From Bacteroidota bacterium (GTDB taxonomy: Bacteria > Bacteroidota > Rhodothermia > Rhodothermales > JAHQVL01): a DNA stretch of 64,000 nucleotides. The notes under the pieces are model-generated. The model worked only from the letters and a program-made list of their open reading frames with translations. It did no database searches and had not been told where the DNA came from. Made by a program: the position numbers and the translations under genes. Below are positions 33 to 6,125 of this stretch, in pieces (position 1 is the stretch's first letter; the number at the start of each line of letters is the position of its first letter). Where the stretch lies: assembly GCA_039111535.1 (NCBI GenBank), contig JBCCIM010000005.1, positions 1 to 64,000 on the forward strand, read 5' to 3'.

Positions 33-1637
33 CTAGCGCGCCGGCGTACCGATACGCTCCAGTTTACCCCACACCATACCAAGCCCTAAAAATTCTTCTA
101 CGGTTGCAAACGTTTTGCAAACATCGATTATCAGGATGAAAAACAGCCTGTAAAAGAGCGAGTAGAAAATGAGCCGGGCCTCCTCTTTCTCAACCGCTAC
201 GCAATAGAGCGCAGCGATAAGATCCAGAATTGTAAGGCTCAGCCACCAGTAGGCAAGAAAGTAAATCAGGCCAAAGGCGGTGGCAATAAAGATGAAATAC
301 AGGTTTGCAAACACATTCATCACCGGCCAGATCAATGACTCAAAGGCCATTGCCCACATAACCATCGTTCCGCCGAAGTTGATGGTTGGATTAAAAAATA
401 AATCCCGGTGCTTACGAATGGCCTGAATAATACCGCGCGTCCAGCGATAGCGCTGTTTCAGCAAGTCGGTAAGTTTGTCTGGTGCTTCAGTAAAAGACTG
501 TGCCCGCGGTTCATATTCTACGCGCCAGCCTTCTCGGATAATTTTCAGTGTCAGATCACAATCTTCAGCAAACGTATCTGAGCTATAACCGCCGGCATCA
601 ATGATGGCCTGCTTCCGAAACAACCCAAGTGGCCCTGGAATGATGTTAACGAGTTTAAACAGGCTTTGCGCAGACCGGGCCATGTTCAACCCTTCTACGT
701 ACTCAAGGGCCTGCAAAGTTGTCCAGATATTGTTGCGATTGTCCACTTTTACGTTGCCGGCCACCGCGCCAATACGCGGCTCACGGAAGTGGCGCATGGC
801 CTCGCGCAGGGTACCAGGCGAAAGCTGGGAATCACCATCTACGCATAATACAAAGTCGTGCGATGATACCTGAATGCCGGCATTAAGCGCCGTAGACTTC
901 CCACCGTTGGTCTTTTCAACCAATTTCACGGTAGCGTGGCCATAGTCACCAACAAGACTGTGAGCAACGGCCCGCGTATCATCTTTAGAGCCGTCATCTA
1001 CAACAACTATTTCAAAAGAAGGATAATTCAGCTTAAGGAGCGAACGCACCGTATTGGTGAGCAACTTGCCCTCATTATAGGCTGGCACAATAATCGAAAC
1101 CGGTGGATATCCTTGTGCGGACTTCTCTGAAATGGTGTACTTGGCGGTATTCAGATAAGCAATATTGAGCAACGCCAGATAACGCAACAGAAGCACTACA
1201 AGGAAGAATACAAGGGCGACAATCGAAGAATACACGCCAAGTCCTTCCCAGGTGAGCGTTGTGCGCTTGCCGGTCCAGTTGCGCAAAATACCGCCCGGGT
1301 CCTCCATAAACACGTAAATAACCGCAAACAGAAAAACCGACAGCAACCCGTAGGTTAGCATGCGGCGGCGGTACTTTTTCCCTTTGTCCTCTACTTCATC
1401 AGCATCAGAATGGTCATCGGGCATAAACGCCTTCCGCACCAGTGGCATCTGGCGCCGGCGAGGAAACCAATCGTCTGGCGGAATGACCGCTGTTCGCTGT
1501 GAATAAGGCGCAGAAAAGGCAGGAACGCGCGCATCTTGTTTGTTCTCGTCTTCCCGTACCTCTTCCCCTTCAGATGCTTTTGCATCTTCATTGCCTCCGG
1601 AGAGGAAAGAAAAGATATTTCTAAATGATGCTTTCAT
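33..1637 (-). CDS. Membrane glycosyltransferase family 2, exopolysaccharide synthase (PgaC/BcsA-like)
   Basis: Predicted inner-membrane processive beta-glycosyltransferase that polymerises and extrudes an exopolysaccharide. The 534-residue protein starts at ATG 1637; a TTG four codons earlier is less likely. It has a charged N-terminal extension of about 90 residues, two membrane segments (about 93-112 and 136-158), a GT2 domain with VVDDGS (about 213), DGD (267-269), EDCD (358-361) and QRYRW (395-399), and C-terminal membrane segments. These are the D, DxD, TED-like and QxxRW motifs of cellulose, PNAG and hyaluronan synthases. No PilZ domain is present. It is last of three co-oriented genes, 94 bp after the TPR porin gene, which fits a synthase-plus-secretin operon. 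The polymer cannot be told from sequence; a PgaC-like product is a guess. Confidence 0.85.
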   Translation of the reverse strand: MKASFRNIFSFLSGGNEDAKASEGEEVREDENKQDARVPAFSAPYSQRTAVIPPDDWFPRRRQMPLVRKAFMPDDHSDADEVEDKGKKYRRRMLTYGLLSVFLFAVIYVFMEDPGGILRNWTGKRTTLTWEGLGVYSSIVALVFFLVVLLLRYLALLNIAYLNTAKYTISEKSAQGYPPVSIIVPAYNEGKLLTNTVRSLLKLNYPSFEIVVVDDGSKDDTRAVAHSLVGDYGHATVKLVEKTNGGKSTALNAGIQVSSHDFVLCVDGDSQLSPGTLREAMRHFREPRIGAVAGNVKVDNRNNIWTTLQALEYVEGLNMARSAQSLFKLVNIIPGPLGLFRKQAIIDAGGYSSDTFAEDCDLTLKIIREGWRVEYEPRAQSFTEAPDKLTDLLKQRYRWTRGIIQAIRKHRDLFFNPTINFGGTMVMWAMAFESLIWPVMNVFANLYFIFIATAFGLIYFLAYWWLSLTILDLIAALYCVAVEKEEARLIFYSLFYRLFFILIIDVCKTFATVEEFLGLGMVWGKLERIGTPAR

Positions 1638-1731
1638 AAGATCGAACAAGACCCGCAGCGGTCTACATTCGGTGTTTCCAAATTCATTTTGTATCCGTAC
1701 AGCAGTATCAAAACGCTACACTTTCACGCCA

Positions 1732-4728
1732 TTAAAGGGTCCAATACAGCGATCCGGAAAAGACAAACGTTTTAAACCCTTCGTCACGGAGGAACTGCTG
1801 TCCGTCAAGAAATCTTACAGAGTAGCCGCCACTTCCACTCAAACTAAAGGAAAGATGCGGGTTAAATCGGTAAATAAGGTCTGACTCAAGCCGCATGGCA
1901 AATGCACCACGACGGTATGATACCAGGCCAGTTGTGGCACGTGTGCGCCAAAACCACTTGGTCCACACCTCATTTTCGTATTCGAGCCAGATATCGTACG
2001 CCTGATAGCCCATCGGGGAGAAATACGTTTCAAGCGTATGGCGATAATGAATGTTGTTAAAGGACAGGCCGAGATAGGTATTGCGCAGGACCCGGTAGCT
2101 GGCTTCGAGTCGAAGGTCTGTCCCTCTGTTATACTGAATGCGCGTCAAGGTACTGTCTGGTCGGCCATTGACGAGGTTCAGTGCAAGAGAAGCGCTCAGG
2201 CGCAGGGTCGAATCCGGCATAACGTTTACTGTTCGCGCCTTCACATCAAACTGGGTCAGGCGCAATCCAAACTCGCCCCCTGCAGGCGACCACAATTGTA
2301 GCGCAGCTTCTGTACTACGCGCGCCAATTGACGCCGTATACTTGTTCGGCACCTGCTTCAGGTAGCGCAAATCAGCAAACCCGACGGTACGGGCGCCAGA
2401 ATAATCAAATACGCCAAACTGCAACCATAGCCGGTTGGTGTAGCCGGCATTAGCAGAGTAAACAGGCGGCGTTATATCAAAATAGCTGCCGGCCATCACC
2501 TGGTTGATGCGCGTCAGGGTATTGGTTGTACCAGGCAGCAGGCGGCGCGTGCCGTTCACAAAATGTGAGACAAGGCCGGCTGTGATCATAAATGGACGCG
2601 GCATTGCTGGCAAAGTAACCTGGGTAAGCAACCCCTGTCCCCAGTGCTCATAACTTGTGATGCTGCCTTTAGCGCGGATATATTGCGATACAGGCACAAC
2701 AAGCCCTACAAAATCTGTGTCGATAGCCCGCTCCACGAGACTAATGCGTTGTATAAGCCGCTCTTCGAACTCAGCCTGAAGGCGAGAGTTTTCAGCCAAC
2801 CGGTCCACGCGGGAAAGGTAAACGGAGTCGGCCTGCCGGTAACGCAATGATTCCAGATAGACCTGCTGGAGAAACTCGCGGGCTTCCGCATCACGGGGGT
2901 TTTTATCGATCACTTGCTCCAGTTCGCGAATGGCGCCGGCGTGATCCCCGAGGTAATACCGATTTCGGGCAACCTCTTTTGCGACAGAAAGGGTGTATCC
3001 TTTGCGCTGAATCGCTTCAAGAATACTGGCTGCTGTTTGAAAGTCCCCTGAAAGCGAATAAAGCTGCGCAAACTCTTGCATGTCTGAGCGTGTCCGGGTG
3101 CCTTTCATCTGGAAATACGACTCATACTGCGCGATGGCATTATCGTACTGCCCTTCAACGGCAAGGGCGCGCGCTTCACCAAGCGCATCAACTTCCCGAT
3201 TAATTTCGTCCCGGCGGAGGGCCTGCTCAATTCTGCGATCGAGGTAGAGGAGCCGGCCGCGGTCTTGTGGCAAACCAAACGTAAATGCCCGCCGCAACAA
3301 CATGTCAGCTTCTTGCGGATTGCCTTGCTGCAAATGCAATTCAGACAAATCAAGCAATACATCCACATCTTCCGGATATGATTCCAGATAATTATTCACC
3401 CGGACAAGCGCATCCGTGACCGGTGTATCACAGGCAAGCACAATACGCACGTAAAGCCGCAGGTATTGCACATTTTCAGGATTGTATTCCAGCAACGTCG
3501 AAGCTTCACCAAGCGCATCGCTGTACATGCCAATATCGAGTAACAGGCGGGCGTACTGATAGCGAACACCATCCAGTTCAGGGTGCAGGGTCAGCCAACG
3601 GCGGTACAATTCAACTGCGTCTTCCGGGCGCCTGGCAATCTGGAAAAACCCGATGAGCTGCGAAATTCTACTTTCGTTCTCCGGTTCTTCAGCAAGTTGT
3701 TTTTCCAGTTCAACAATGCGTTCCTGGATCCACGTATTCCGCCGGCTGTCGAGCATTTGCAACCGGTGCATGTATCCTGCATCCTGCGTATCGATGTGTT
3801 CGGGGACCAGGAGCGTACGGTAAGCTTCTTCGATCCGATCTTTTTCAAGGTACTCATCTACCAGCGCATACCGCACGAGCAGGTTGTCGGGCTGGTGGGC
3901 CAGTAAATACCGGTATCGGTCGATGGGATAGACAGGCGAATTACCTGTCGCGCGTACAAGCGCTACATCAATTTGCGAGAAAAGCTCAAGCCAGCGCTGC
4001 GTGCCGTCGTGCCGCTCAGCAAGCAACATCAGTTGTTCATGGGCCGAATAATACCGGTTGTAACTGAGCAAGTCGTAAATAAAGCGATACCGGCGCTCAT
4101 CAAGTTGCGGATAGTCTGCCGGGTCAGCTACAGAAGCGGGCGGCGGGTTTTCCAGCCGTTGCTCCAGGGTTTCACTCGCAGTTGCCTCAGCAAGCCCTTG
4201 CTGAGAGAGTGCGTGGTCCGGATTTAACTTGAGGGCTTGTCCAAACGCTTCTCGCGCAGCATCAAAATTGCCCTGCCACATGCGGAAATAGCCGAGCCGC
4301 ATGTACAGTTCATGGTCGGTAGGATAAATGGCGAGGTACTTTTCGGCTGCGGCTACTCCCCGTGCCTCATCACCCGGGTAACCGGCAATTGCAATGAGGT
4401 ATCGCTGGATGGTATCTGGCGACCCCTGCATGTGCTGCAGAAACCGCTCATACTGCCCAACGGCCTCGCGAAAGCGGCTGTTGTCGTACAACATGTCGGC
4501 GTATTGCCGGCGCGCCTGAAAGTCGTTGGGCGAACGTTCGAGGTGCGCATGTAATGCTTCCGGGCTATCAAAAGAAGCTACGCCGTCCACTTGCTGAACG
4601 GGCACCTGCGCCATTGCAGATTGTGCAGAAACAATCCACAGTAAAATCAAACCAGCAACAACCATAGCGGACATCACAACGGCAATCTTGCTGTCGGCGG
4701 ATGGTGATATGTAATCAGTGCGCTGCAT
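1732..4728 (-). CDS. TPR-repeat outer-membrane exopolysaccharide export protein (PgaA/BcsC-like)
   Basis: A 998-residue exported protein. Residues 1-40 form a signal peptide with a long hydrophobic core ending near AMAQ. About 55-660 are tandem TPR-like helices (for example ARREYADMLYD-, LYMRLGYFRMWQGN- and YRRWLTLHP-type units). The last ~300 residues are rich in alternating polar/aromatic strands (YLGLSFNNIHYRH, RFNPHLSFSLSGSGGYSVRF) typical of an outer-membrane beta-barrel. The TPR scaffold plus C-terminal barrel matches PgaA and BcsC, which carry a polymer through the periplasm and outer membrane. It lies between the KaiC/GGDEF-like gene and the GT2 synthase on the same strand. Barrel assignment is from strand pattern only. 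Confidence 0.8.
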   Translation of the reverse strand: MQRTDYISPSADSKIAVVMSAMVVAGLILLWIVSAQSAMAQVPVQQVDGVASFDSPEALHAHLERSPNDFQARRQYADMLYDNSRFREAVGQYERFLQHMQGSPDTIQRYLIAIAGYPGDEARGVAAAEKYLAIYPTDHELYMRLGYFRMWQGNFDAAREAFGQALKLNPDHALSQQGLAEATASETLEQRLENPPPASVADPADYPQLDERRYRFIYDLLSYNRYYSAHEQLMLLAERHDGTQRWLELFSQIDVALVRATGNSPVYPIDRYRYLLAHQPDNLLVRYALVDEYLEKDRIEEAYRTLLVPEHIDTQDAGYMHRLQMLDSRRNTWIQERIVELEKQLAEEPENESRISQLIGFFQIARRPEDAVELYRRWLTLHPELDGVRYQYARLLLDIGMYSDALGEASTLLEYNPENVQYLRLYVRIVLACDTPVTDALVRVNNYLESYPEDVDVLLDLSELHLQQGNPQEADMLLRRAFTFGLPQDRGRLLYLDRRIEQALRRDEINREVDALGEARALAVEGQYDNAIAQYESYFQMKGTRTRSDMQEFAQLYSLSGDFQTAASILEAIQRKGYTLSVAKEVARNRYYLGDHAGAIRELEQVIDKNPRDAEAREFLQQVYLESLRYRQADSVYLSRVDRLAENSRLQAEFEERLIQRISLVERAIDTDFVGLVVPVSQYIRAKGSITSYEHWGQGLLTQVTLPAMPRPFMITAGLVSHFVNGTRRLLPGTTNTLTRINQVMAGSYFDITPPVYSANAGYTNRLWLQFGVFDYSGARTVGFADLRYLKQVPNKYTASIGARSTEAALQLWSPAGGEFGLRLTQFDVKARTVNVMPDSTLRLSASLALNLVNGRPDSTLTRIQYNRGTDLRLEASYRVLRNTYLGLSFNNIHYRHTLETYFSPMGYQAYDIWLEYENEVWTKWFWRTRATTGLVSYRRGAFAMRLESDLIYRFNPHLSFSLSGSGGYSVRFLDGQQFLRDEGFKTFVFSGSLYWTL

Positions 4729-4859
4729 CAGGTGTAAATTCTCAACAGTTAGGCGGATCTGATACGCCAGCTATCATGCTATCCAAAAGCCATGCCGCAC
4801 ACAGGGGCCGCAAGTCGCTTTCAGCATTGGGGGCGCAATAAAGGTGGAAATGTGTCCTG

Positions 4860-6125
4860 TTAGTTGCCTTCGAGGGCATATGCGAGGAAATCTTCCGGAT
4901 TTTCAAAAGGTTCGCCGTTAGGCACAACGACAGCCGATACAACATGCGGCAGTTGATCAGCCACCGACGGGTATTTTTCTCTGAGCTGGTCTTGAATTGA
5001 TTCAAAAAACTCCTGAACGTTGTCTCCTTTTTTGTTAGGCAGAAAAGCGATGATGCGGCCCCGGGCCATATCGACCAGAATATCTTCCGGGTGGACAACA
5101 ATCTGCTCAATGGCAGGGAGCAACATATCGAGTCCAATGGTGCCATCAGGCGTGGACTGTTCTGCCTCCATGCGGAGCGCTACGAGAAGGAAAGGTTTGT
5201 ATTTTTTACTGGCCCGTTGTTTAAACGATTTCTTAAGCTTTGCAAAAAAAGCTGCGTGTGAATTTTCCAGCGCGCGCAAAGAATCTACGGCGACAGAGGG
5301 CACCGGCATACCGGCAAGCGACAGGCTCTCCGGGTTAATTGTCGTCGACGAGGCCTCAAAAGGAGAGACTGGTACGTCGTGTCCCGGGGTGCCCAGGGAT
5401 CCAAGTTGGCTGCCGGCCATTCCTGAAGGATTATCAGCTAGCGACAACATCGGAATATCCCACGGATCTACAACTTCGTGCGTAACGTGCCCAAGGCCAG
5501 GCCAAAGTACCAGCCGGCGGCTGCCCGTCGGACCTGCACCTTTGGCATCTTCGGGCATTGAAACATGCATGGAGCCCGACATCTGGTTGCGCATGAATTC
5601 CATGATGTGCTGCGACTGCGCATTAATGATGTCTGGCATCATCAGTAGTACAGTGGTTTGCACCGTAGCCAACTGCCCCATCATCCAGCCAAATACCTGG
5701 CGAAAACGGTCAAAGGAGCGAAATTGCAAGAAAGGCACAAAATCGTTAATCAGTACCCGTTGCGGCCGCTCAGCCATGATAAGCTGGACCAACTCTTCAA
5801 TTGCACGCGAAGCAGTAGCATCTGACATGTTAGGGCCAGGGGCCGACGCAGGGATCCAGACCATTTTAACGCGGCCCTGCTTCTGTGCCTGATCAAGATC
5901 AAAACTTACCGAAGCAGCCTGAATCATCCAGTCCTGGGGCCGGCCGGGAGATAGAAACAGCGTCTGTTCCTCCAGCACGACACCCGTCTGCAGAAACAGC
6001 ATACCCAGTAGACCTCTCCCGTTGGAAGCATGTCCATAGCACATGTATGACCCACCCTGGTACATACCACCCCAGGATTTGTCGACTACATCGATGCCCG
6101 ATAGGATTTTAGGGACGTAAGTCAA
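4860..6125 (-). CDS. Degenerate KaiC/RecA-like ATPase fused to a degenerate GGDEF-like domain
   Basis: A 421-residue soluble protein, first gene of the exopolysaccharide operon; TTG at 6125 is the best start. Residues 1-230 follow the KaiC/RecA layout (SGIDVVDKSWGGM, then a P-loop position, then hydrophobic strands ending RVLINDF). The Walker A position (31-40) reads GHASNGRGLL, so the catalytic Lys and Thr are replaced by Arg and Gly. Residues about 300-421 align with a GGDEF fold: HPED sits where the RxxD I-site would be (345-348), ARGRI replaces the GGDEF loop (354-358), followed by IAFLP and the SAVVVPNGEPFENPEDFLAYAL end. Both catalytic signatures are therefore lost. From family knowledge, BcsE of cellulose systems also combines degenerate domains of this kind. 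I infer a nucleotide- or c-di-GMP-responsive accessory protein for the synthase. Confidence 0.6.
   Translation of the reverse strand: MTYVPKILSGIDVVDKSWGGMYQGGSYMCYGHASNGRGLLGMLFLQTGVVLEEQTLFLSPGRPQDWMIQAASVSFDLDQAQKQGRVKMVWIPASAPGPNMSDATASRAIEELVQLIMAERPQRVLINDFVPFLQFRSFDRFRQVFGWMMGQLATVQTTVLLMMPDIINAQSQHIMEFMRNQMSGSMHVSMPEDAKGAGPTGSRRLVLWPGLGHVTHEVVDPWDIPMLSLADNPSGMAGSQLGSLGTPGHDVPVSPFEASSTTINPESLSLAGMPVPSVAVDSLRALENSHAAFFAKLKKSFKQRASKKYKPFLLVALRMEAEQSTPDGTIGLDMLLPAIEQIVVHPEDILVDMARGRIIAFLPNKKGDNVQEFFESIQDQLREKYPSVADQLPHVVSAVVVPNGEPFENPEDFLAYALEGN

Follow-up and report, generated by a model that had tools for sequence, protein, structure and literature searches.

The window analyzed here, meaning the whole 64,000-nucleotide stretch, opens contig C5 (its first 64 kb) in a genome of 6.6 Mb with 97.6% completeness. 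Close to its start lie three genes, which encode a GT2 synthase, a tetratricopeptide repeat (TPR) porin-like protein and a protein with a KaiC-like and a GGDEF-like domain, hereafter KG. A preliminary description had presented them as a co-oriented polymer operon, and minus-strand open reading frames are present exactly where it had placed them. The operon itself is longer than the window shows, in the order KG, TPR porin, GT2 synthase, small single-transmembrane (TM) protein and two NodB-like proteins (six genes), and its KG-TPR-GT2 core is conserved across two clades. A search of the window genome with a relative's downstream gene located the last three of these genes, all on the minus strand, where contig C123 (19,918 bases) ends. 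Judging from gene order in relatives, rather than from reads, C5 and C123 probably adjoin. The genes are as follows.

33..1649, minus strand: GT2 processive polysaccharide synthase, 538 aa (open reading frame; Pfam GT2; motifs and TM segments)
1732..4728, minus strand: TPR outer-membrane porin-like protein, 998 aa, with a PgaA/BcsC-like layout (open reading frame; Pfam TPR)
4860..6125, minus strand: KG, 421 aa, cytosolic, operon leader, TTG start (open reading frame; Pfam KaiC; AlphaFold)
G000:C123:14635-19599 (L111), minus strand: remainder of the operon, small TM and two NodB-like genes (search with relative's gene)
C123:19114-19599, minus strand: small single-TM protein, 161 aa (search with relative's gene)
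Contig C123, minus strand: two NodB-like proteins, 747 and 671 aa (search with relative's gene)

Within the window, the genes are separated by 82 nt (GT2/TPR gene) and 131 nt (TPR gene/KG), and the divergent neighbor of KG encodes elongation factor P (EF-P), beyond which are genes reading as accB and accC. An overlapping frame at 4742-5146 encodes no family recognizable by Pfam, and PADLOC defense models produced zero matches. The partners of KG most resemble the PgaABCD machinery for PNAG, with which they share a TPR porin, a processive GT2, a NodB-type protein and a small membrane partner. The GT2, in which the catalytic motifs are intact (VDDGS, DGDS, AED and QRYRW), is closest to the PgaC and NodC models. 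However, it scores 209.3 bits against NCBIfam PgaC, below the cut-off of 422.3, and the TPR protein—which has an N-terminal hydrophobic segment at residues 15-33—scores 37.6 bits against NCBIfam PgaA, far below the cut-off of 366.65. Furthermore, while the 671-aa NodB-like protein matches the Pfam deacetylase family above threshold (37.7 bits versus 23.1), inspection of 34 aligned members did not reveal the usual NodB catalytic residues (TFDDG and HxxxH), with one possible exception (L090), and these proteins seem to lack them. Finally, pgaABCD as described includes no KG-like protein. The small protein has one TM segment and a disordered tail. The tail closes with the motif Y-T-S-x-G-Y/F, which is conserved: a strict pattern recovers it in 16 of 20 small TM proteins across both clades.

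KG homologues were detected in 31 of the 60 genomes of the order, and a one-peptide-pattern scan of 84,980 species genomes placed KG in Rhodothermales and in a clade of Ignavibacteria. In a 395-genome sample of the phylum, a sharp gap separates the best matches of family members, which extend down to E 1e-69, from the next best ones in other genomes, which begin at 1e-23 and resemble generic KaiC proteins. A TPR gene directly follows KG at 18 distinct Rhodothermales loci and at 17 of 18 Ignavibacteria loci; past it, where the contig continues, there are usually GT2, small TM protein and NodB-like genes. The preliminary description had tied KG to the GT2/TPR pair, which our neighborhood survey bears out in part: the KG-TPR-GT2 arrangement recurs in two clades, but GT2 is missing from 19 of the 31 KG-bearing genomes of the order. 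Conversely, all 12 genomes of the order (out of 60) with a GT2 orthologue possess KG, a co-occurrence with a Fisher p of 1.4e-4, uncorrected for relatedness. Because the operon is also found in the Ignavibacteria clade, the synthase-less genomes appear to have lost the synthase and kept KG. Rhodothermales and Ignavibacteria are split with full support in the KG tree as well as in the GT2 tree, which is consistent with vertical descent in which the synthase part was lost repeatedly; at least three changes are needed on the tree, where some long branches are unsure. No shared partner was found beside KG in synthase-less genomes, its neighbors being UvrA-like, PIG-L and leucyl-tRNA synthetase genes or unknowns; in some Rhodothermales (L041, L042, L044, L051 and L077), it adjoins a PIG-L de-N-acetylase and leucyl-tRNA synthetase. 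Separately, some Ignavibacteria (L100:2677-3525, also L096, L101 and L102) have a tandem KG paralogue the size of the N-terminal domain (~280 aa) before KG.

These data bear directly on whether KG is simply a general cytosolic protein of the clade, with a housekeeping or signaling role, to which the polymer genes are merely adjacent. Such a role would account for the 19 genomes in which KG occurs in the absence of GT2, and for the fact that KG without synthase often still resides near EF-P/accBC. Yet KG is present in every synthase-bearing genome, the operon has the same gene order in the second clade although its flanking genes differ between Ignavibacteria and Rhodothermales, and the two trees have a deep split in common, all of which make this explanation unlikely.

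The AlphaFold model of KG (pLDDT 84) consists of two domains, both mostly above 90, joined by a disordered linker (residues 230-277), and no TM segment was found in the protein. The preliminary description of two degenerate nucleotide-binding folds is borne out, the first being KaiC-like without its lysine and the second GGDEF-like without its motif. The N-terminal features are these.

5457..6122, minus strand: KaiC/RecA-fold domain of KG, residues 2-223 (Foldseek; Pfam)
6006..6035, minus strand: degenerate Walker A GHASNGRGLL, residues 31-40 with the start Met as 1 (sequence; family comparison)

This domain matches Pfam KaiC (PF06745) with 37.4 bits, above the cut-off of 26.6, and Foldseek retrieves KaiC (E 8.5e-13) and FlaH (E 1.1e-12). 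As had been claimed, the Walker A motif has no Lys: Arg37 occupies its position, and a Gly replaces the Ser/Thr (GRG). This position is Arg in 21 of 24 Rhodothermales homologues, Asn in two and Lys in one, and the missing Lys is therefore a family trait and not a sequencing error. Ignavibacteria homologues vary between GRT and GKT, several of them retaining GxxxxGKT, and Walker-A decay looks graded across homologues. KG thus shares fold and Pfam family with KaiC ATPases but differs from them in having a single KaiC domain, a fusion to a GGDEF-like domain, no intact Walker A (GHASNGRG) and no catalytic Glu pair, LFLSPGRP being aligned to KaiC FEESP. An ATP-driven switch of the KaiC type, in which KG would bind nucleotide despite the Arg and gate the synthase by ring assembly, draws support from the good fold match, the P-loops retained in those Ignavibacteria and an acidic Walker-B-like segment (VLINDF/VVIDDF) conserved among homologues; with neither Lys nor Ser/Thr in the P-loop of the window protein and the Glu pair replaced, we find it quite improbable.

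The features of the second domain are the following.

4863..5297, minus strand: GGDEF-fold domain of KG, residues 277-421 (AlphaFold; Foldseek)
5037..5093, minus strand: HPED-ILVDM-ARGRI-IAFLP, residues 345-363, where I-site and GGDEF motif are both lost (sequence; models; alignment)

Because a profile search against PDB sequences gave nothing credible (the best match was a designed protein), only fold comparison placed this domain; the Pfam GGDEF_2 match is weak (E 0.03, below cut-off). Modeled alone by AlphaFold (pLDDT 89, pTM 0.84), it has GGDEF domains and PelD as top Foldseek matches (PelD, GcbC and FimX), with a best E of 2.5e-3, hence none below 1e-3, and PelD giving the highest query TM-score (0.60) among these top matches. 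The predicted fold, which the preliminary description had related to GGDEF, is thus not unrelated and appears closest to GGDEF domains, though the match is distant. The GGDEF/GGEEF active-site motif of diguanylate cyclases (PF00990) reads ARGRI in KG and is absent in the homologues listed. The spacing argument made previously survives for one motif and not the other: ARGRI is at the GGDEF position, with strands in the models flanking the hairpin as around GGDEF, but HPED is not the I-site, since the RxxD column conserved in relatives, which replaces that register, starts one residue upstream. The window KG has V344...E347 there, and no RxxD under either register. Among homologues, RxxD is kept in 20 of 34 from Rhodothermales, where it aligns close to R415-T-G-D418 of BcsE, and the Arg is found in none of 15 from Ignavibacteria.

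The window genome was searched for GGDEF, EAL and PilZ family proteins, and none was detected; E. coli and others served as positive controls. Of the 12 genomes with a synthase, 11 have neither GGDEF nor EAL, the exception being G030, in which a single protein carries the two; PilZ is missing from all 12. The search covered these three families; the genomes are drafts, but the pattern recurs in many of them. In Ignavibacteria, 15 of 17 genomes have only one or two weak GGDEF matches, and two such proteins that we translated, each the single one of its genome, read GEKEF or LDERI and are probably inactive. One of them (L119:1179-3041), a 620-aa protein with GEKEF, is an apparently dead cyclase, and the weak matches in most Ignavibacteria genomes searched are proteins of similar length. 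Of the other two genomes, one has a canonical GGDEF protein and the second, G066, has 25 matches and may be a mixed bin; this MAG, labeled Tenericutes, harbors an Ignavibacteria-type KG (L092). A c-di-GMP sensor, which was our first working model and corresponds to the signal-reading module proposed earlier, was dropped once no GGDEF, EAL or PilZ had been found in the window genome; such a sensor is unlikely in this organism, given also the loss of the I-site from the window protein and the lack of a synthase in 19 of the 31 KG-bearing genomes. A c-di-GMP receptor like PelD or BcsE, switching GT2 on via the GGDEF-like domain, is very doubtful, for the fold, the PelD match and the RxxD of many Rhodothermales homologues are outweighed by V..E in the window protein, the missing Arg in Ignavibacteria, the near-complete lack of these families in synthase-bearing genomes and the probable inactivity of the two Ignavibacteria GGDEF proteins.

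BcsE, a component of cellulose secretion of the E. coli type, heads its operon and is a dead NTPase-REC-GGDEF protein; it binds c-di-GMP at an RxxD motif, and the single-pass peptide BcsF recruits it by adding a strand to its NTPase domain (PMC7439463; PMC11470070). Support for the parallel with BcsE drawn in the preliminary description comes from profile similarity that is weak but collinear across the two domains, and from a BcsF-like small membrane protein in the operon. Profiles were needed because aligning the single sequences of KG and E. coli BcsE with hhalign yielded no meaningful match. With a seven-sequence BcsE alignment, hhalign matches the two domains of KG in collinear order (p 0.0022 and 0.0058), and column-shuffled profile controls scored as high in 1 of 150 and 0 of 150 cases. 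The BcsE model PF10995 does not match the window KG, which does not reach the Pfam gathering threshold; in a search of 40 relatives it picks one KG orthologue (E 6e-4, 19.3 bits versus a threshold of 25), and it matches 2 of 24 KG homologues (best E 9e-4). Both proteins lead their operon, with a degenerate RecA/KaiC-like N-terminal domain and a degenerate GGDEF C-terminal domain, accompanied by a small single-TM protein with a cytosolic tail—bearing the conserved motif in our operon—and by an adjoining GT2 synthase system with a TPR porin. In contrast to BcsE, KG is shorter and has no middle REC domain, the corresponding residues 230-277 being disordered, and no RxxD in the window protein; in addition, BcsQ and BcsR were not found in its operon, its synthase has no PilZ match and its host has no detected c-di-GMP proteins. 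KG is therefore not a BcsE member, being below the Pfam threshold and without REC, while these sequence comparisons support the notion that it may work like BcsE.

On balance, and with confidence only just better than even, we favor the view of KG as a cytosolic assembly scaffold, itself catalytically dead, for a synthase-dependent exopolysaccharide machine; this scaffold would be BcsE-like and operate without c-di-GMP. By analogy with the docking of BcsE by BcsF, the small TM protein would dock KG at the inner membrane; KG, probably oligomeric, would then hold or stabilize the GT2 synthase, and the polymer would meet the NodB-like proteins before it exits via the TPR porin. Several points weigh against such a scaffold. 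Since 19 of the 31 KG-bearing genomes of the order have no synthase, KG has, or had, another role. RxxD is retained in many homologues from cyclase-free genomes, which a pure scaffold leaves unexplained. The resemblance of KG to BcsE in sequence is weak and does not reach the Pfam threshold, and neither the middle REC domain of BcsE nor its BcsQ and BcsR partners are present.

PelD, like KG, has a degenerate GGDEF fold that serves a polymer synthase. However, it has TM helices and a GAF domain and binds c-di-GMP via RxxD, whereas KG has no TM segment, no GAF match in Pfam and no RxxD, and carries a KaiC-like domain instead. A dead GGDEF domain ties polymer machines to c-di-GMP in the standard examples, BcsE and PelD, and the occurrence of a KG-type architecture without detectable cyclases, phosphodiesterases or PilZ makes an assembly-first role of dead domains testable. 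Tentatively, we suggest a wider possibility, namely a widespread and undescribed synthase-dependent exopolysaccharide system in Rhodothermota and Ignavibacteriota, assembled by a pseudo-enzyme scaffold of the BcsE type, its hosts having lost c-di-GMP signaling or never possessed it. If this is true, architectures joining a dead NTPase to a dead GGDEF domain would have scaffolding as their core or ancestral role, onto which c-di-GMP sensing was added. This points to an uncharacterized polymer system in two poorly studied clades, for which Melioribacter, which is cultured, is a candidate host. Nothing on a KaiC/GGDEF polymer operon in these clades was found in the literature searched, and the main text of a survey of synthase-dependent operons (PMC7112194) does not mention these taxa; the parts are ordinary, and their combination is unusual and undescribed in that literature. 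As for the polymer, a gene of the GH9 (cellulase) family is directly upstream of KG in many Ignavibacteria (e.g., L088:6968-8608), which suggests either beta-1,4 linkages in the polymer or an enzyme with a clearing role.
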